DNA of 38,768 nucleotides from contig JAGHUK010000036.1 in assembly GCA_018064845.1 (NCBI GenBank), positions 1 to 38,768 on the forward strand, in the 5' to 3' direction. This DNA is from Candidatus Hennigella equi (GTDB taxonomy: Bacteria > Bacillota_I > Bacilli_A > Mycoplasmatales > Mycoplasmoidaceae). The number at the start of each line of letters is the position of its first letter. Within the stretch, counting starts at the first letter, position 1. The notes under the pieces are model-generated. The model searched no databases. It was given only the letters and a program-made list of their open reading frames with translations, and was not told where the DNA came from. This document shows positions 11,080 through 37,284 of the stretch, in pieces. The position numbers and the translations under genes are program-made.

Positions 11080-14000
11080 ATGAAATTAAAAAGATTATTG
11101 CTTGGATCTTGCGTCAGCGCTGTTAGCGGTGGCTTATTAGCTACAATCCTAACTAGCTGTGGTGCAGTTAAGATCGAAGACGATTTAAAAGTTGAACTTG
11201 ATGATCAAGGTAGATTTGTTGATGAAATCAGTTTTCAAGATGCACTTAAGGCTGCTTTAGCAAACCAATCAAGCTGAGCTGCATTAAAAACTGCTTTAGC
11301 AAATGAACTAGTTTATAAATGATTCGAAGACAGAGCGTCTAAAGATAAAGATTCTAAAGATAAGAACGATAGCTTTAGAACAACATTAGATGAAATTAAA
11401 TACAATGTCGATGAAGACTATAAGAAATTAGTTGATGATTTAAAAGCAAAATATGGTTCACAACACAAGTTCTACTTGCAAAATGAACATTTATCACAAT
11501 ATGGCGGTACAGAAGAATCATATAAACACGCTAAGATTGTTGAACAACTTAGAACTAAATTCATTGACAATGTTTTTAAAACAAATTATTTCACATTTAG
11601 ATCAGGTGATGAATCTAAAGATCTTCCTCAATACTTTACTAATGTAAACACATATGTTAAAGAAGATGTTTTAAAAGACCCTGCTAACTGATCAAAAATT
11701 GGGTTCTATGCTAAAGCTAACCCAAACTTTGATGTTAAATCTGAAGACGATGTTAATCAATTAGCAAAACACCCAGATGGTGATTATGCAACTATCCAAA
11801 ACTTTGTTTTTAATAAATGATTTGAAACTGAAAGACCATTCTTCTCTTCAGCTGCTTTATTTAAATATGCTAAACCAGTTGAATCAGGTGGTGAATTATC
11901 TAACATTTATAACAAAGACTACACTGGTGATGTAACTGATCCAAACGAATCATTCCCATTCTTTGGTGGTCAAGCTATAAGTAATGGCTATACAAGTTCT
12001 AGAGGTTTCTATCGTTGATATCATGCTCTAGAAGATGCTGAATTCCAAGAAAATGGATTATATGAAGATGAAGATGATGTAGAACATTACAACTACACTA
12101 TTTCAATTCCTGCTGAATATTCAGAAGATGGACAAACTGTTTTATTATGTTCTGCTAACCAAATGTTTGGCGGATCAAATGCTCTATATGTTCCATATGC
12201 TGTAGCAGCTGGAAGCTTATTAAAGCAAATGCTAACTACTAATAAAACGCCAACAAAACAAAACACTATTGATCAAGACACATTGGCGAACAATGTTGGT
12301 AATGATGAACCATTAGATGTTGACTCAGATATCATATTTAAAAACTTTTTCTATACAAAACAACCTGGTTCTAACATCCCATCATATTTAGACCTTAATA
12401 CTATCTACGGTGGTTTGGTTGGTGATTATTACCATTGCCCAATTTTTAAATCAGATTCAACATTTAAATATTTCTATGGTGCTAATGAAACAACAAATGG
12501 TATTAGATACATTACTAATAATGTACAAGTTCCACTTAAACCTAGAAGCGGTAGCTTCCAAGCTGCAGAACAACCTTGAATTCTTGAATTAAATGAAGCT
12601 GGAGTTCATGCTCAAACAATTGATGCATACTTATATGTATTACAAGGACAAACAGGTACGGTTCTAACTAGATGAAAAGAAGCTGTTAAATTTAGATTGC
12701 TTCAAAAACTTTACTATGATACAAGTATTGTCTCAGCAGATTTATTTGGTAAAGCTGGTAGTGATGATGGTGGTAAGTTAAAAACTTACTTTACAGACAA
12801 CTTCGATAACATCATTCTAGAAATGGCTATCCATGATGATTTAAAAGAAGGTGGCAACCTAAACATATTTAGAAAGATTGAATCATTCAAAGATAGTTTT
12901 AGTTTTGAAAAATCATTCATTAATGAAGTTTATTTAGATCAATTATTTAAAACTTCTGCATTAAGTGATTTGATGACTTATCTAGATTACACAATTGATT
13001 TTGACTTGTTAAAGAAAAACAACGCAACAATCATTAATGCAAATAGCACTATTTATAAATATAAAAATGCTCAAATTGCAAACTTAAAGAGCAAAAAAGG
13101 CAAAAAGAAATACACTAATGGTTTAATTGCTCCATTAGATGCGTTGTATGAAACTAATTCAAGTTTTGAAACTACTCATTTCTATAGTGAAATATTGCAA
13201 GGCGTTATTGTCTCTGAAGTAAAAGAATGAGCTAATACTGAATTCGATAATGCTAGAAAACAAATCGAAGGCTGTAACTTTGTAAAAAACATTAACAACA
13301 TTCCTGTTGACTCTACACTTGAAGGATTATCTCCACAAGTTAAAGCAGCTAAAGATACTCTAAGCAATAGATTCTGATTTAAATCTAGCATCATTGACAA
13401 GATGATGTACTCATTCATGAGCAACAAAACACTAGCTAACGAAATCAAGTCTAAGACATACGAAAACTACAACAAAAATGAAGTATCATATGTTGACACA
13501 AATTATAAACATGAACACATTATTTCTGGATCACATGGTGCATTACCAGCTGCTTTCTATGCATCAAAAATATTAACTGGTGATAACAACTTAGCTTCAT
13601 ATATAACAAGAAGTCAAATACAATCTAGTTCATTTGATGACATTATTAGAACTGCATACACAAATAAATTGGATAAGTCTAAAGCCATTGATGGTTTATA
13701 TTGCGATGATCAATTAAATGATGATGTTTACAACATCACAATGACTTATTTAGCTAAACACAATTTTGAAAACTTCTACAACAATATCAAAATTGGTGAT
13801 ACTGAGAAGGCGCTAGTAGGTTATCTAGTTAAATATAATGCTATTGATCATGATTGACTTCAACCAAATGTTGGATTAACAGTTGACACAATTATGTCTG
13901 GTGAAACAGCATATAACTGAAGCGCAAATGTTGAAAATATGTTTGATGCATTTGGCTATGCTGGATGAAGTAGCGAAACGCCAACAAAAGATGATAGAAC

Positions 14001-14949
14001 TGGACGTGTTAATTACGATGAATACTGACACGTTGTTCCTAAAAAATTCGATATTACTGGCTCAAATGCAATGCAATTTGCTGGGTTTGTTGGAATTCAA
14101 ACATCAGGAAACAACCAACTTGATAGTAGCTCAGGATTAAAAGATGCTGCTTTCAAGGACTTTGCTAAAGCAACAGAAGATTCACCAGTTTTAAGTGATG
14201 CTGGTGGAGAACACGAACAAAATGAAGGCTCATTATTTGCTTGAGCATGTAGTAGTAGCAAAGAAGCTGCCGAAAAATATGCAATTAAGAATGCAGTTGA
14301 ACCAGTTGGCGCTGGTACTCCTATTACTGACTCTCAATTTAGTGTAATCCCAGAAGCTAGAAAATTAGCTTGCAAGATTATTGCTTGTACTACAACTGAT
14401 GACTTAAGAACTTTAGCCGAATCAATTTCTGAATCATTCATTGGTGGATCATTATTTAAACAAATCGCCAGAAGAGAACTTGAAATCGACAAAGATAAGC
14501 CAGTTCAAGACTTGAAGTACAAGATGGTTGGTGAATTGTTAAAAGTAGAAGAGGGCACAGGTAACCTAGTTTACAAAAAAGCATTACAACGTGTTAAAAA
14601 CGTTGAATTACACCGTACTACAAGTTCGAAATATTGCTTCGAAGATGAAAACAACGGCTACAAGTTATTAATGACTCAAATTAACAAAGAAGACGTGCTT
14701 GAAAAGAAACTAGCTCCACGTTGAAATGGAACAGCATGAGTTCTTGATGATAGCCCATTAACTCTTCAAGAATTCTGATATATCTTTGCTAAGATGGCTG
14801 CAGATAACTCAATTCAACAATTAGCTATTGCTGATGCAGTTAAGACTAAGTTTGGCGATAAGAAACTAATCGTTCATGACGCTCAACTATATAACCAATT
14901 CGATTCAGTTTGAATTAAAGACTGAGTAAAGAAACCAATTGGTGAATAA
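11080..14949 (+). CDS. Large surface lipoprotein of unknown function
   Basis: The 1289-residue product begins with a classic mollicute lipoprotein signal: basic MKLKR, a hydrophobic core, then the lipobox LTSC, giving a lipidated cysteine at about residue 27. The mature protein is rich in Asp, Glu, Lys and Asn and has many TGA-encoded Trp residues, about 20 in all. One stretch near residues 55-75, DALKAALANQSSWAALKTAL, looks helical. I see no enzyme motif and no clear repeats, and I do not recognise the family. The frame is intact along its full length. Ribosome site AAAGAGGA precedes the ATG, and a hairpin terminator follows the stop. Abundant surface antigens of this size are common in mycoplasmas, so an adhesin or antigen role is only an inference. 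Confidence 0.9.
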
Positions 14950-28045: not shown

Positions 28046-28600
28046 ATGCAGATTTACTCTAAGACACAAGTACATGAAATTGCTTTAGCTCTTAAGTCTG
28101 GAAAGGCTGTTGTTTTACCTACGGATACAGTGTGAGCAATCGCTAGTCTTAATGAAGGCCAAATCTATACTATCAAACATAGAGCGCTTGAAAAGAAGGT
28201 ATGCAAGTTTGTCGCAACAGTGGACGAAATCGGAATGCCTTCTTTTTTAAGTGATGTGATAAGAAATTACATGCCAGGAGCATTAACCGTTGTCTGAAAA
28301 GACACAAGTTATCGCATTCCAAAATGCGAATTCATTATTGATATTGTAAAAATAACCGGTCCTTTATATCAATCCTCCGCGAACATTTCGGGTCAGGAAC
28401 CGATTGGAACCTCCCAACAAGTGTTTACTGAGTTCAAACAATACCTCGATCGGATAGTAATTGTTGATAACTCACCATATGAACAATTTAGTCAAAAACC
28501 ATCAACGATCATAAATCTAGATACCCTCACAGTAATCAGGCAAGGGGAAATAGATGGAGAAAGAATAATAGAAGAGATTAAAGAAAGGAAACTTCAATAA
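28046..28600 (+). CDS. tsaC: Threonylcarbamoyl-AMP synthase (TsaC/YrdC/Sua5 domain)
   Basis: Makes threonylcarbamoyl-AMP from Thr, bicarbonate and ATP for the t6A37 modification of ANN-decoding tRNAs. The 184-residue product has AVVLPTDTVWAIASL, where the family has VVxPTDTVYGLA, the TIKHRALEKK segment (KxR), MPGALTVVWK and the conserved SSANISG. It is the minimal YrdC domain without the Sua5 C-terminal domain. Two TGA codons are Trp. There is no Shine-Dalgarno sequence. Its TAA overlaps the next ATG by one base (TAATG), so it is the first gene of the transporter operon, an odd partner for nucleoside uptake. Confidence 0.88.
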
Positions 28601-30819
28601 TGAAATTTAAATCATTCTTAGCAGCACATAAAACATTAGTAAATGATGTTGTTGTTAGTACATGCTTAATTGGTGCATCAGCAGGTGTTGTTTTTGGTAT
28701 TTCAGCAGGAATGTTCAAAGTTGAATACATGCAATTACATGGAATCGAACAAAGAGTAGCTGCAATGAAAAACAACAACTATCTTTCAGAAGATATTGAC
28801 TCAAGCTGGAATATGAACCAAGGCAAAACTGCAGACGGCAAGATAATTCCAGGCTGAGATGCGCCTGAGTGATCAGACATGAAGGAAGTTTGAAGCAAAC
28901 AAGAAGTTAAAGACTGGTTTTATGCAACACATGGTAATGACGCTGTTCCATTGTGAGATGGCATTGGTGATAGAAAACTACAAATTGATAAAGTAGAAGG
29001 TGACCCAACTTACAACGCATATGAACAAAGATATAAATATGCAAGTCTTGTAATCGATGGTGCCGCTCACTCAACAATGGACCGTTCCTTTAACCAATCA
29101 CTTTACCAAGGTTTGGTAGACTTCATTCATAATGAACATTGTGATCATTGTGATGCTGAAACTGGAAAGGATCCAGAAAAACAATTTATTGCTAAGTCAT
29201 GAAAACCATCACAAGATACTACAACTGATTTCATTAATACATATGTTACAGCTATTAGAGAAAATGACGTTCTTGGTTTAGCTGGTTTTAACCACACTAC
29301 TCCACTATCTACAATGATGCAACACAAAGAGGATGGAGATGTTGTTGATAAATTTGCATCTAACTCTGACCCTGAAATTAACAAATATTGTAATAGTACT
29401 GCTTTCATCCTTCTTGACTCTAATATTGCTAATAACCAAAATATTGCTTCTGTTCAATTTAGAGCAGACCAACCTGGATTCTTAGCAGGATTGGCAACAT
29501 GTCAATATTTAATGAATAACTTAGATTTATATCATGATAAGTTTCAAGATATAGCTGTTGCTGCTTTTGGTGGTGTAGCTATTCCAACTGTTACTATTTA
29601 TATTGGTGGTTTCCAAAGAGGAATCGAACTTTACAATTACTGTGTAATTTCTGGTTCACTTGATACTGCACCAAAATATTACTTTGCAAGTACTACTCCA
29701 ATACCTTCATGAGAAAAAACTCGTTTAGATACTTTTAATAACTTAATTAAACACAGCAAATATAAAGCAGATGTTGAAGCAATTGCAAATGACACATCAT
29801 TATCAACAGAACAAAAAGTTGAAAAGTTCAACACTGACTGTTGACAAAATATTTATGATGAGTTCTCAATCAAAATGATTAAATTAGGTGGTTTTGATAC
29901 TCACTTCTCAGGAACATTTGCTGCTGGTGATGCAATTGGTATTACAAAACAATACTTAAATAGAGGAGCTAGCGCAATTATTGCAGTAGCAGGTCCTCAA
30001 TCATTAGATGCTTCACAAGAAATTAGAAATCAAAACTCTAAAGCAATCGTAATTGGAGTTGACTCAGCAATGGAAGATGGTGATTACCAAAGATACCACC
30101 ACGGTTGCGATGAATCATCTAAAACACAAAAAGTTGAAAGCGATCCATATGTTGATGCAACAATTGCACCAGACAATAGTTGTTCGCCTCAAGCTAACTC
30201 AATTATTAAGTTCTCAGCTGTAAAAGACCTTAGAAACGTTGGAAACAGAATTACAAGACTATGTGCTGAAGGTAAAAACTGAGACATTAGTGCAGGCGAC
30301 CAAAATGAAATTGGTAAACCAGACCCTAGAAGAGCGGTGTGTGGACCAGGTTTCCAAACATGTGGTAACATCCTTAATGGTTTAATTTCAATTTCATGAG
30401 ATGGTTTCTATTATATGCTTCAAGCATTATCTCATGTTTCATTTTCATTTGAACAATATGACAATTTAGGATTAGAGCAAGTTTGAGCAATAGTAGCAGC
30501 TAAATATGTAACAGCTCACGCAGAACTTGATCCGGAATATGCAGAAGGTATTGTCAACATCAACAACATTAAGACATTTAATAGAACATATAAAGAAGAT
30601 GTTGGCGAACACAAAAAAGGTGACCAAACTGTATATTACCTAAACTATAACTCAACTACAGAAATTCTTGGTGACCTATTCAATTCAGCAAAAATCGCAT
30701 TTGCAGACTACATGTCATTAGTTAAAAATGAAGCTGGCGAATTTGTTCCAATGACTGTCCCATCAACAAATTTAACTATCCTTGATTGGTTAGCAAATAA
30801 CATGTACATGATGAGCTAG
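28600..30819 (+). CDS. Membrane-anchored BMP/PnrA-type substrate-binding protein
   Basis: Likely captures purine nucleosides for the ABC importer encoded downstream. The 739-residue product is about twice the usual length. Family signatures are GAAHSTMDRSFNQSLYQG near residue 155-170 (PnrA: DGGKIDDKSFNQ), AGFNHTTPL near 228, VQFRADQPGFLAGLAT near 285, YIGGFQRGIELYN near 340, TFAAGDAIGITKQYLNRGA near 448 and IGVDSAMED near 486. The N-terminus has a basic region and a single hydrophobic helix (residues 16-38) with no lipobox at its end, so it looks anchored by a helix rather than by lipid. Residues 40-145 and the region after 500 are extra. TAATG overlap with tsaC; its TAG lies within the next gene's AGGAGG. 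Confidence 0.88.
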
Positions 30820-30829
30820 GAGGCAGACG

Positions 30830-32467
30830 ATGAAAATTACTGATTTATTTAGAAAGCGTAAATCTGCTTCTAAGGATGTGGAAAATAAGAAGAAAAGCAA
30901 ATTTGCCATTGAAATGAAAAATGTTACCAAAACATTTTTAGGCGGCAAGATTATTGCTAACTCTAACGTTAACATTAGTGTTAAATGAAACGAAATCCAT
31001 GCACTATGTGGTGAAAACGGTGCTGGTAAGTCTACATTAATGTCAATTTTGTTTGGATTATACAAACAAGACTCAGGTACAGTTTATGTAGCTGGTAAGA
31101 AAGTGGACTTTAAAAATGCTATGCAAGCCAACAATGCTGGTTTAGGAATGGTACACCAACACTTTAAACTAGTAATGGCATTTGATTTATTGCAAAACAT
31201 TACTTTAGGTGCTGAAACAACTAGACACGGTTTGTTATACTCTAAACCTGCTAAAGAAAAAATTAACCAAATTTGCAACAAATATGGTTTTAAAATTGAT
31301 TTACACCAAAAAACTTCAGAAGCTACCGTAGGTACACAACAAAAAGTAGAAATTATTAAGTTACTATATCGTGGTGCTGAAATTCTAATCTTCGACGAAC
31401 CTACTGCCGTTTTATCTGATGATGAAATTGCCGGTTTCCTTGATATGTTAAGAACATTAAAGAAACAAGGAAAGACAATCATTCTAATTTCGCATAAATT
31501 AAATGAAGTATTAGATGTAGCTGACACAATTACAGTTCTAAGAAAAGGTGTAACTGTCGGAACTTACCCAAGATCTGAAATTGACACATCAAAATTAGTT
31601 GAACTAATTGTTGGTCGTAAGATGATTGAGAACACAAACATGTTAAACTTTGAAAACAAGTTGTCCCCAATCATTAGAATTGAACATATTAAAATGCACA
31701 AACAAAATGACAAGAACTTAACTGCTATTTATGACTTGTCATTAACTGTTAACTCAGGTGAAATTGTTGGTATTGCTGGAATTGAAGGTAATGGTCAATC
31801 TGAATTAGCTTTAGCTCTTGCAGGAATTCAACACCCTGATAAAGGAAAGATCTTCTTTACGGTGTCAGGTCTAGAAACAGACATTACTAAAGAAAAACCA
31901 GGAATTATTTCTAACTTAGGTTTATCACATGTACCTGAAGACAGACATAAATATGGATGTATTCTTGATGAAACTGTTGCATTCAACCTTATTAGCAACC
32001 AAATTAACAACAAGTTGTACAACCGTTTTGGTTTCTTAAAAATGAAAGAAATTAGCATGAATGCTAACAACCTATGTACAAGATTTAATGTCTTAGGTGC
32101 TAATAAAGGTAGAGCTAGATTCAGATCATTATCTGGTGGTAACCAACAAAAAGTAGTTGTGGCAAGAGAATTATCTAAACCACACTCTGTTATTGTTATG
32201 GTTCAACCAACGCGTGGTTTGGATATTGGTGCTATTAACTCTATTCATGATTACATTCTTGAAGAATCTAAGAAAGGCAAGGCTGTTATCCTTATTTCTT
32301 ACGAATTAGATGAAATCTTAAAGATTGCATCAAGAGTAGTAGTGATGGACCACGGAAAGATTGTTTATGATGGTCTTAAGACTAAGACTGATAGACAAAC
32401 TATTGGTAAGTTCTTAATGAGGACCGGTGGAACACCAAAAGATACTGCTACGAAAGGAGGTAACTAA
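30830..32467 (+). CDS. nupO: ABC importer ATPase, nucleoside (NupO/RbsA-like) type
   Basis: Two-domain ATPase on the inner face of the importer. In the 545-residue product, domain 1 has Walker A GENGAGKST near residue 61, Q-loop MVHQHFKL, signature TVGTQQKVEIIKLLYR, Walker B ILIFDEPTAVL and H-loop LISHKLNEV. Domain 2 has a degraded Walker A (GIEGNGQSELALALAG), the signature LSGGNQQKVVVAREL, VQPTRGLDIGAI and LISYELDEI. This asymmetry with one weak ATP site is typical of the NupO/RbsA group. A long basic N-terminal lead (residues 1-25) precedes domain 1. Ribosome site TAGGAGGC; the stop overlaps the next ATG by one base. Confidence 0.93.
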
Positions 32468-35025
32468 TGGCTATTTTCTCAAATAAGTCAGTCACGCAAC
32501 AAAAAATGAACAACAAATGACAAAAGTTTGTTCATTCTGACGTAAGGCAATCAACAACAAAGAAGATTCTAGCAACTATTGCTTCAATCTTTGTTGCTTT
32601 TGTTCTTGCGTTAATCATTGCATGTAGCGTTTGCAATGCTTGAGGGAAAATTGGTAAAGTCTTATCAATTATCTTTACATCAAGCTTTAAAAACCAAACA
32701 ATCGTTAACACATTACTAAGTAACATGTGTATATTGATTGTTGGTGGTATGGCCTTTATCTTTGCTTATAAAGCAGGCTTATTCAATATTGGAATCTCAG
32801 GCCAAATGGTTGCCGGAGGAACGGCTGCTACCATAATTTGTCATCTTGCTAAACTTCAACCTGGTGTAAACCAATTTGTTATCATCATTGCAAGTATGGC
32901 ATTTGGTGCATTAGTTGCATCACTGGTTGGTGTCATGAAGGCATATCTAAGAATTAATGAAGTTGTTTCATCCATCATGTTTAACTGGATTATTTACTTC
33001 ATGTCAATTCTTACATTGTCATTATTGCCAATTCAAAGAGACGCATCTAACCTTAATACATTAGCTCCAAATGATAACTTATTGCTAAGAGCTGATGGTT
33101 TTAGCTGGATGCCACTAGTTATTATTACAGCAATTGTTATAGTATTTGTTGCTGTTGTTTTAAATTACACAGTATTAGGAAGAAAGCAAAGAGTTACAGG
33201 ATTAAGCAATACTGGAGCTTTAGCTGCTGGTTATAACGTTAAAGCCAACATGATCACTTCAATGGCAATATCTGGAGCTATATCAGGTATTCTTGGTGTT
33301 ATGTTATATTGTGGATTTAGTCCAAACATGCCAGTAACAGCTGCCGCAAAAGCAATTCCTCAAGAAGGTTTCAACGGTATTTCAGTTGGATTGATTTCAA
33401 TGTGCAACCCAGTCGCATCTATTCCAGTTTCATTATTCTTCTCAATGGTTAAAACATCTGTTTCTGACCTACAAGCAATCGGAATTGATAATCACATTGC
33501 TGATGTTATCTTTGGTATTGTTGTATATGGTGCAGCTGCAATTACATTGTTCTTAAACTTAAAACCTTATTGATTAACATTAAGGATTTTCAGAGGAAAG
33601 AACTACAGCAAGATCCAACACGAAAGAAATATGACAAACATTCAATTATTGTCATTAGCTTCTGACCAATGTGCAATCTTAAGCAAATACTATGTTTACT
33701 ACCGTAAACAAGAAGCTGTTGCATCAACAATGAAACTTAACTTCATCATTAGATTTAAGATGAAATTTGCTGATTTAAGATATGCAATAGTATCATTACG
33801 TGCTAAATATCGTGTTTGAAAGAACTTAGAATTTGATGAACTAACAGGTCAAAAATTCTATAAACAACAAATGATAAGAGTTTATAAGAAAAACAACTTA
33901 CTATATGTTGCTTCCGACAAGAGAAAAGCATTCTGCAAATATATTAAAGTAACTGATGAAATTATTGCAGATAGTCAATTTAAAAATAATCTTAAGAAAG
34001 CTTTCAATGTTAATTTAGCTCCAAACTTCATGCCAACTCTACAAGATGTTTGGAACAAAAAGAAAGCTGTTCCTTGAACTGACAATAAGATTAAATTAGT
34101 TGCATATCTTGCATATCTACAAAACTTAAGATCTGGTTTAATTTACAGAAATACAATTTCTAAACAAAATAAATTGACTTACTTTGCTTTGCAACAAACT
34201 AAACAACAAGCAGAATCAATCGGTTTAGCAGAAATTAGATCTAAGAAACAATATCTATTTGCTAGAACAGCATATTTCAAAGCTTACCAAAAAACATTTG
34301 ATATTGTTAAAGCTCACTACGACACAATGGCTAGAACATTCGGCCGTAACAAACCTTTAAACATTATTGGTATTAGATTTAACCCAGAAACATTAGAACA
34401 ACTATATATCAACAATTTAAAATCAGAAATTAAAGCAATCGGTCACTTGATTAACTGCCCATTGACAAAAGTTCAACTATCTGAAGTTGGTACATTAGTT
34501 TCTCGTGCTAGATATCTACAATTAAGAATTGAAACAGGTACAACTCAAGCTAACAGCTTTAGAAGAATGTCATTACCATACTATGACAAAGCCAAGAAGC
34601 TTAATGAAAGGGCAGCTAGACTTCATAGCCAATTAAAATCTAACATTAAATTAGTTAATAGATTAGTTGAAACTCCACTTAAAGACATTGAGGCAGATGC
34701 AATTAATAACTTATTAGGAAGAGTTGATTCTCTAAATAAGGAAATTCAACAAGTTAGAGTACAAGCCGATGATGCAAAAGCAACTGCTGAAAGCTATGTT
34801 ATTAAATCTAAAGACGTAGCAGATTCAGTAACAACTGACAGAATTGCTCAAGATCAAGCTAACAAGAAGATCTCATCTATCGTTGATCGTGCTAGAATGA
34901 CACAACAAACTACACAACAAGATAAATGATCAGCTCAACTTAAAGCTAATGAAGAAGCTGAAAAGATCTTAAGAAAGCTAGCAATTAAACAAGCTCGTAG
35001 AGCATCAAGGAGAGGAGGGGAATAA
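32467..35025 (+). CDS. nupP: ABC importer permease with giant basic helical tail (NupP-like)
   Basis: Residues 1-368 form a normal permease of the BmpA-NupOPQ type: about 9-10 membrane helices with AGLFNIGISGQMVAGG, RINEVVSSIMFNWI, NTGALAAGYNV and GFNGISVGLI. Residues 370-852 form an extra tail of about 480 residues, predicted cytoplasmic, rich in Lys, Arg, Gln and Ala, first with aromatic basic segments (YYVYYRKQEAV, SLRAKYRVWKN) and then with long helical, coiled-coil-like stretches (LKSNIKLVNRLVE, LGRVDSLNKEIQQVRVQADDAK). It ends RRASRRGGE. The join has no stop or frame change. The ribosome site AAAGGAGG is strong. The tail has no motif I recognise. Confidence 0.9.
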
Positions 35026-35026
35026 T

Positions 35027-35335
35027 ATGAAAAAGACAAATGCTAAAAAACCTGCTCCGTTTGCACTAAAAATGCAAAAAGCAAAAGCTAAGAAAGCTAA
35101 ACGCATGGAGAAAGAAGCAGCTAAAAAAGCAAAATTAGAAAAGAAAGCTGCTGTAGAAAAAGCTAAGCAAGCAGAAATCTTAAAAATAGCACTAAAAGCT
35201 CGTGCTGCTGCTCGTGCCATTTCTAAAGAAAAAGACCGTATATACGCAGAAAAAATGGCACAAAAACAAGCAAAAGCTTTAGCAAAACAACGTGATAAAA
35301 AACTAGCCGCTAAAGCTAAGAAAGGAGACAAATAA
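35027..35335 (+). CDS. 102-residue Lys/Ala-rich polycationic helical protein
   Basis: Of 102 residues, 32 are Lys and 27 Ala, with almost no hydrophobic core. It reads as one long charged helix (KKAKLEKKAAVEKAKQAE, ALKARAAARAISKEKDR). No membrane helix, signal or enzyme motif is visible. It starts one base after the permease stop with ribosome site GGAGGGG, and its own TAA overlaps the next permease ATG, so it is made together with the importer. It may bind nucleic acid, acidic lipid, or the helical tail of the upstream permease. Alanine and lysine bias is not a sign of a non-coding frame here, since a good ribosome site and tight coupling flank it. Confidence 0.8.
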   Translation: MKKTNAKKPAPFALKMQKAKAKKAKRMEKEAAKKAKLEKKAAVEKAKQAEILKIALKARAAARAISKEKDRIYAEKMAQKQAKALAKQRDKKLAAKAKKGDK

Positions 35336-36261
35336 TGGGAGATTTAGGTTCCTTACTAGACTTAACCTTTATATTCACCGCTATCTTATTAGCTGGTGCA
35401 TTATCAGGTTATTTGTCTGAACGTGCAGGGATTGTTAACTTAGGTATCGACGGAATGATGTGTATTGGTGCATTGTTCTTTGGTATCTTCTCATCAACTG
35501 CCTTCTGAGGAGGTACTCCTCCTTTTGCAACTATCATTGTTGCTTTATTATTAACAATGATTTGCACAATGATCATGGGTGCATTGCATGCTTTTGTCTG
35601 CATCCATCTGAAAGCTGACCATACAATTGCTGGTACAGCAATTAACTTAGTTGGTCTTGCTTTAGCTACATTCTTGAACCCAAGTTTAGCAAATTTGTTA
35701 AACCCAGGTGAATCTAAGATTATGTGTAAATATTTCTCTTGTTTGCCAATGGGAAGCTCACTATTTGGTTCAAGCTTAATTATTTTCTTAGTGGTGTTAG
35801 CTATTGGTGCTGTAATCTTCTTTGTTGTTAACAAAACAAAAGTAGGATTAAGATTTAGAGCAGTAGGTGAAAACCCTAATGCTGTAGACGCACAAGGTAT
35901 TTCAGTTATTAAATATCAATGAATTGCAGTATTGCTTTCTTCTGCAATGGCAGGATTAGCTGGTGGACTATTCCTATTTAAGGTTAATGCCTTCAATGGT
36001 GATGTTCAATCAATGGGATATCTATCATTAGCTATTCTAATTACTGGTGGATGAAAAGTTCCTAAGATGGCAGTGTTTGCTGTTGTCTTTGCATTGTTTA
36101 ATGCTGCAGCCGGAACAACTACATTCACACAATTAGGTATTCCACAATTAGTTGTTTTCTCTATTCCATATATTATTACTTTAGTAATTCTATTATTCTC
36201 TGGAAGAAAGAACCTACCTCCAGCCCATTCGGGTATACCATTTGAAAAGGGCGCTCGGTAG
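35335..36261 (+). CDS. nupQ: ABC importer permease, nucleoside (NupQ-like)
   Basis: Second permease of the importer. The 308-residue product has about eight membrane helices with family signatures LAGALSGYLSERAGIVNLGIDGMM at the N-terminus, ADHTIAGTAINLVGLAL, and KTKVGLRFRAVGENPNAVDAQGISV, the cytoplasmic EAA-like loop. AMAGLAGGLFLFKV and SLAILITGGWKVPK follow. Unlike the first permease it has no C-terminal extension. Ribosome site AAAGGAGAC. It pairs with the upstream permease to form the channel. Confidence 0.93.
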
Positions 36262-36264
36262 CTC

Positions 36265-37284
36265 ATGAATTTATTTAAAACATTACAAATTGCAATTCCA
36301 TGCACAATGGGAGCAACGATAGTTGTTGTTCCTAGTATTGTAGCTGCAACAGACAATAGTAAAGTTTATGATGAAGCGCTTTGTTTTGAATGTGCTGCAG
36401 GTTCATCATCAACTGTTCAATATGAAGCAGTCAGCTCTGATAAAATGAAAATTGATATTGAATATAAGATAAATGGCGGAGAATGACAAGACTGAGAGCT
36501 GATTGATCAAGAATCAGGACATGGATTAAGCATACCACTTACTATTAAAAGAAGACAAAAAGTATACATTAGAAATACAACTGAATATCTTTCAAATTCT
36601 AAAGACGAATATGTTCAATTCAAAATTGATGGTAATAATAAAATAAAAGCATCAGGTAATATCAATAGCTTGGTAAATTATCAAGATGATTTAAGTGATT
36701 TTAGCTTTTATGAGTTATTTTATGACTGTGATGGTTTAACAAAAGCACCAGATATAACAACGCATGTTGGCAATAAAAGTTGCTATTACAAAATGTTTGC
36801 ATTATGTGATTCATTAAAAGATGCACCAAAAATTAAAGCAGAAAAATTGTGTGCATATGCTTGTGAATCAATGTTTAATTCATGCACTCACTTAACAAAC
36901 GCTCCTTTAATTGATGTGCCTAATTTAGGAGGAACAGCTGTATTTAAATCTTGTTTTGCAGAATGCCATGCTTTAATTAATGTTCCAAAAACATTGCCAG
37001 CAACAACACTAACATCACACTGTTATGACAGTATGTTTATGAACTGTTCGCTATTAACTAAGGCTCCATTGTTACCTGCAGGATCTTTGCATATGCAATG
37101 TTATCAACAAATGTTTAAAGGTTGCTCAAAATTAAAAATATTAGCTGATAAAGGCAAAAATGTAATTTGTGATTTTAGGGAAAGACATATAGAATTCCCA
37201 ACTAATGCAACAAGAGATATGTTTGCTGATACTGCCTATGGCACCATCGAAGTTTTACCTGAACACTTCTATAGTTATGAATAA
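36265..37284 (+). CDS. BspA-like cysteine-rich repeat surface protein
   Basis: The 339-residue product starts with a signal-like segment (IAIPCTMGATIVVVPSIVAA) and a beta domain at residues 35-140 containing EYKINGGEWQDWEL and KASGNINSLV. About six repeats of 23-30 residues follow (146-296) of the form YxxMFxxCxxLxxAPxLxAxxLxxxC, for example YDSMFMNCSLLTKAPLLPAG. This layout is known from LRR proteins of Bacteroides and other gut bacteria, and is related to BspA. It is most likely a secreted or surface protein gained by transfer. The start is three bases after the permease stop without a clear ribosome site. A terminator follows. Confidence 0.85.

Follow-up and report, generated by a model that had tools for sequence, protein, structure and literature searches.

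Why does a nucleoside permease gene run on into a C-terminal tail longer than the channel itself? The question arises at one locus of Candidatus Hennigella equi, within a stretch of 38,768 nucleotides that was analyzed as a whole and is called the window (contig JAGHUK010000036.1). The window genome (G000; G001 to G005 denote its genus relatives) is a mollicute assembly of 636 kb in 46 contigs that is 82% complete. An earlier note on this DNA had described an intact frame joining a permease to a tail, and the frame held up. Positions 32467–35022 on the forward strand are open under genetic code 4 (TGA = Trp) for 852 codons, the stop is at 35023–35025, and in-frame TGA codons, read as Trp, encode residues 18, 59, 369, 451, 537, and 821. 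Shuffling of the tail codons puts the probability of meeting no TAA or TAG in the 484 tail codons at ~1.6e-14. The single 852-residue product consists of a BPD_transp_2 (NupP-type) permease core followed by a 484-residue C-terminal tail. The core (residues 1–368; 32467–33570, + strand) matches Pfam BPD_transp_2 over residues 82–355 with 117.8 bits against a curated cut-off of 26.8, and its AlphaFold2 pLDDT is mostly 80–97. The same family is matched by 42 of the 42 aligned members. The idea that the tail is a separate downstream gene was rejected; the frame is continuous and there is no start with a Shine-Dalgarno sequence near residue 369 or 451.

The permease gene belongs to an operon that encodes a Bmp lipoprotein, an ATPase, and the P and Q permeases, and the same gene order is found in genus relatives. 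The Bmp/PnrA-type nucleoside-binding lipoprotein is an ORF of 739 aa (28600–30819, + strand) that matches Pfam Bmp with 47.8 bits (E 1.3e-12). This match covers just residues 159–346, and the counterparts of 825 aa in G003 and 701 aa in G002 exceed typical PnrA proteins. The double-domain ABC ATPase of the importer (ORF of 545 aa; 30830–32467, + strand) matches ABC_tran in two stretches (E 3.5e-41), and the stop of its gene overlaps the start of the P permease gene at 32467. The Q permease (308 aa; 35335–36261, + strand) matches BPD_transp_2 with 107.6 bits and has no tail. Between P and Q lies a small basic ORF of 102 aa that is rich in Lys and Ala (35027–35335, + strand; pI 10.6) and has no match in Pfam or NCBIfam. 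It has its own Shine-Dalgarno sequence and is absent between P and Q in the genus relatives that were read. The Q permease gene is followed in the window by a BspA-type LRR protein (36265–37284), where relatives have an upp-like (uracil phosphoribosyltransferase) gene. Elsewhere in the window, a 1289-aa ORF at 11080–14949 has a lipoprotein-like start (a signal peptide with LTSC). The same gene set imports nucleosides in M. agalactiae, and mutants in its permease and lipoprotein genes resist 5-FU (PMC12892991). By analogy with the M. agalactiae operon, for which nucleoside transport has been demonstrated, the window permease is assigned as the P subunit of a Bmp-type nucleoside ABC importer.

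The earlier note stated that standard NupP proteins end after about 350 residues. This is correct outside Mycoplasmatales, where 67 homologues (Lachnospiraceae, Bacillus, Acholeplasmatales, and others) extend just 5–56 aa past the core, but not within the order. At loci of the same GTDB family, 63 of 63 P permeases are tailed, with 79–412 aa after the core; the core end was misplaced in two of these loci, L105 and L106, and the corrected L105 tail is 359 residues (L128). Another 32 P permeases from other Mycoplasmatales families have tails of 31–566 aa. The 72 partner Q permeases from the same operons are 299–345 residues long, end ≤6 residues past the match, and have no tail. All P permeases examined in the order are tailed and these 72 Q permeases are not; therefore, only one of the two channel subunits is extended. 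Tails are never missing on P and always missing on Q in the sampled Mycoplasmatales. The search of permeases in related mollicutes that the earlier note had suggested thus gave a tail on every Mycoplasmatales P permease examined, and the idea of a tail unique to the window genome was rejected because P tails are the rule in the order. The window tail is among the longest in the sample. The longest, 566 aa, is on a 928-aa P permease from another family of the order (L146:773–3559, genome G026). All Mycoplasmatales P tails likely share a common descent. Iterative profiles built from the juxtamembrane and helical modules gave no match below 1e-3 beyond G000, G002, and G003, so the tails of different genera are not linked by this route. 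The tail fusion itself is an ordinary and apparently undescribed Mycoplasmatales feature; we found no description of an order-wide stalk on an importer subunit in the open-access literature. A published M. bovis screen found full resistance to ICE transfer when a transposon sat 96.9% of the way along the first permease gene, FWK06_000100 (PMC12892991). A rough estimate from the printed positions gives this gene ~640 codons, in which case no more than some 20 residues would be missing from the end of a tail. The phenotype is explained more simply by polarity on the Q gene than by tail loss.

The tail was divided into four modules from an alignment to the five genus relatives and further alignments to two of these, G002 and G003. 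Module a (residues 369–450; 33571–33816, + strand) is a juxtamembrane helix that aligns in G003 and G002. Module b (residues 451–533; 33817–34065, + strand) is the YlxR/RnpM-like domain and is present only in G000 and G003. Module c (residues 534–690; 34066–34536, + strand) is a helical domain with an LQNLR motif that is found in G003 and G002. Module d (residues 691–852; 34537–35022, + strand) consists of long coiled-coil-like helices with no counterpart in relatives, and just 12 of its residues align in G003. The identity between the window protein and G003 is 62% in the core, 41.5% in module a, 19% in module b, and 37.6% in module c, so within the aligned tail module b changes fastest. AlphaFold2 modeling of the full protein with 41 relatives gave a mean pLDDT of 75.5 and a confident core. 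Helices are predicted in the tail at residues 378–453, 558–584, 593–624, 640–663, 668–735, and 743–848, and the pLDDT is ~66–89 over residues 571–690 in module c. These long helices agree with the coiled-coil-like parts noted earlier, but a heptad period (3.49) is significant in residues 668–735 only (5/1000 shuffles) and nowhere else in the tail. Foldseek with the full-length model recovered only ABC permease cores (PsaB, 7kyp; BhuU, 5b58) with E values of 0.005–0.02. Weak Pfam matches to T3SS_SCTL, XhlA, and DUF6480 and weak PDB matches were set aside as coiled-coil or chance level.

Two sequence features picked out in the earlier note proved less telling. The tail is indeed rich in Lys and Arg (pI 10.1; 89 K+R versus 43 D+E), but a pI above 9 is found in 97% of 103 tails and also in 79% of the other ORFs at these loci. 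With such neighbors, basic composition is uninformative as a sign of nucleic acid binding and was dropped. The RRASRRGGE ending is there, but RRGGE is the Shine-Dalgarno sequence of the next gene read as codons. This ribosome-binding site (35009–35020, + strand; sequence GGAGAGGAGGGG / GGAGAGGAGGGGAATAATATG) encodes the terminal RRGG of the tail, and the ATPase gene and the gene for the 102-aa ORF likewise end in a Shine-Dalgarno sequence read as codons.

A weak match to YlxR/RnpM was located at the same place, residues 451–533, in both Pfam and NCBIfam. The library scores are under the curated cut-offs (Pfam, 14.3–18.5 versus 26.9 bits; NCBIfam, 14.6–16.1 versus 80), as would be expected if the likeness were a chance match and the tail merely a fast-evolving helical extension. 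The structure predictions gave no confirmation either. AlphaFold2 of the domain alone gave strands followed by helices at low confidence (pLDDT 49.5), and Foldseek with this low-confidence model of the domain alone returned no significant match. The full-length model represents the region overlapping module b with low confidence as mostly helix or coil, with no strands. Profile comparisons argue the other way. A local YlxR profile made from 16 Mycoplasmatales YlxR proteins gave 24.6 bits with the window protein and 25.0 bits with its ortholog in G003, whereas the best of the other 62 permeases reached 3.0 bits and the maximum from 10,000 shuffled tails was 11.7 bits. The alignment of these two segments to 11 YlxR proteins by hhalign had a probability of 94.8 and an E value of 5.5e-8. 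The segment is the sole YlxR match in the whole window genome (E 5.3e-6) in a whole-genome profile search. G003 was not listed in that search; its domain contains four TGA-Trp codons, and it is probably missing because these were read as stops. The insert is also about the size of YlxR relative to G002, and the two genomes that carry it, G000 and G003, are exactly the genus members in which ylxR is gone from nusA-infB, as described below. We consider a chance match very unlikely. Judged from the sequence comparisons, residues 451–533 are a diverged YlxR/RnpM-like domain of remote homology. Other long tails had no such insert, among them those of the neighboring genus g9, which itself lacks ylxR. 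The insert is common to the window and G003 only and the tails are order-wide; therefore, it is the insert and not the tail that is unusual. The embedded YlxR-like domain, unlike the tail as such, is the surprising part of this protein.

The arrangement of ylxR in the genus bears on the origin of the insert. G001, G002, and G004 have the order nusA-ylxR-infB, followed by a gene resembling rbfA, and G005 also has ylxR. In all four of these relatives ylxR is retained and the tail has no insert. In G003, nusA adjoins infB with no space for ylxR. In the window genome, nusA and infB are separated by a lipoprotein-like ORF, without ylxR, and whole-genome searches of the 82% complete assembly found no standalone ylxR. 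The nusA-infB interval of this genome, on contig C20, holds lipoprotein-like ORFs of 182 and 72 aa (L084:2208–2904). Modules a and c are joined directly in G002, without module b, and what the window and G003 proteins have in addition is close in size to the YlxR protein (90–92 residues in the genus). The permease-core tree places G000 and G003 as sisters (support 92/89) inside a well-supported genus. Our inference is a transfer of ylxR into the permease tail, and one move on the common branch of G000 and G003 explains the pattern. The gene has been lost repeatedly in this GTDB family; it is above background in 0 of 36 genus g9 genomes, with one marginal match at 0.023. With losses this common in the family, the absence of ylxR does little by itself to show that the gene moved. 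The earlier note had named a match of the tail to a separate protein family that starts independently in relatives as counting against its reading, and this came out in part. A run of 83 tail residues does match ylxR, which stands between nusA and infB in relatives, but in the window the YlxR-like part lies within the long frame and lacks a nearby start codon plus Shine-Dalgarno sequence of its own.

We propose that the cytoplasmic C terminus of the P permease carries a long helical stalk; throughout the sampled Mycoplasmatales the extension is on this one subunit, so each importer has one kind of subunit with a stalk. In the lineage of G000 and G003, the stalk gained a YlxR-sized domain and the nusA-infB operon lost ylxR. 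A single relocation would account for both, and the YlxR-derived domain would have been repurposed within the stalk. The usual topology of the permease family suggests that the tail lies on the cytoplasmic side. There, the role that we favor for the stalk is that of a docking or regulatory arm near the ATPase, where the importer opens to the cytoplasm. The identity and origin of the protein, a P permease with a stalk and a YlxR-derived insert, are probably as described. A role for the stalk in docking partners or regulating the importer is a tentative suggestion. The cytoplasmic scaffold of the earlier note is a reasonable reading of a tail that is truly fused, but the fusion is no oddity of the window genome, and the interpretation in that note is partly supported.

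Other roles for the tail were weighed against this proposal. The tail may link import to enzymes that salvage nucleosides or bases, forming a metabolic channel. The upp gene (so named on the basis of its sequence rather than a family search) adjoins the Q gene in genus relatives, and a single kind of tailed subunit in each importer would supply a docking arm. However, the LRR protein and not upp comes after the Q permease in the window, and no enzyme partner was identified, which leaves this coupling unlikely. The tail could instead be a neutral, drifting C-terminal extension. Tails range between 31 and 566 aa, with weak sequence conservation between genera, and 11 of 52 M. pneumoniae ribosomal proteins carry extensions that are mostly predicted to be disordered (PMC9534751). 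Neutral drift is hard to match with P always tailed and Q never in genomes under strong deletion pressure, or with the 38–42% identity to G003 that is kept in the flanking modules; disrupting the M. pneumoniae ribosomal extensions also affected fitness (PMC9534751). We regard drift as improbable.

Alternatively, the YlxR-like domain may have kept the ability to bind RNA (RNase P RNA, for instance), which would anchor RNA metabolism to the importer at the membrane. B. subtilis YlxR(RnpM) associates with RnpB and binds DNA nonspecifically (PMC11898665). RNase P RNA is present in both G000 and G003, the domain is basic (pI 9.8 and 9.9 in the window and G003 copies), and the fusion could be the replacement for the standalone ylxR that was not found. 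However, the GRGxY motif reads AFCKY in the window, where it is lost, and TRGWW in G003, and the invariant YlxR positions are only partly kept, with a different subset in each copy. The segment evolves fastest, with 19% identity compared to 38–42% in its flanks, and many relatives simply do without YlxR. RNA binding by the domain is possible but doubtful. Given how fast the domain changes relative to the rest of the aligned tail, and the loss of GRGxY in the window copy, it is unlikely to have kept the function of RnpM. The sequence drift suggests repurposing instead, and a membrane tether for RNA metabolism is quite unlikely. The tie to nucleic acid in the earlier note gains some support from one segment of YlxR/RnpM descent and none from basicity or the RRGGE end. 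It is highly doubtful that an RNase P modulator that left nusA-infB now works as a domain of the importer arm, joining RNA processing or decay to nucleoside uptake at the membrane. The reading that we prefer remains a P permease stalk with a repurposed, YlxR-derived insert.

An apparent one-off fusion is replaced here by two testable facts. One is an order-wide cytoplasmic stalk on a single nucleoside importer subunit of wall-less bacteria. The other is that, within one genus, a transporter tail seems to have taken up a conserved gene of RNA metabolism. Close relatives preserve the earlier arrangement, which allows the uptake of the gene to be mapped onto a phylogeny and function to be compared.

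Three known systems are the closest points of reference. The window protein shares with the NupP-type ABC permease of the P48-linked importer in M. agalactiae and M. bovis its core domain, the lipoprotein/ATPase/P/Q set, and a code-4 mollicute host. It differs in a 484-aa tail with a YlxR-like insert, compared to the 5–56 aa of homologues outside Mycoplasmatales. Module b resembles YlxR/RnpM (PF04296, NF047356; 1g2r) in ~83 aligned residues in the same order and in insert size, and each copy keeps some family-typical residues. In contrast to that family, the window domain is not standalone, is not between nusA and infB, scores below the curated cut-offs, and has lost GRGxY. The C-terminally extended ribosomal proteins of M. 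pneumoniae (PMC9534751) are likewise long extensions on conserved mycoplasma proteins, whereas the window extension is on a membrane transporter, is mostly helical, and is found on one of two related subunits.
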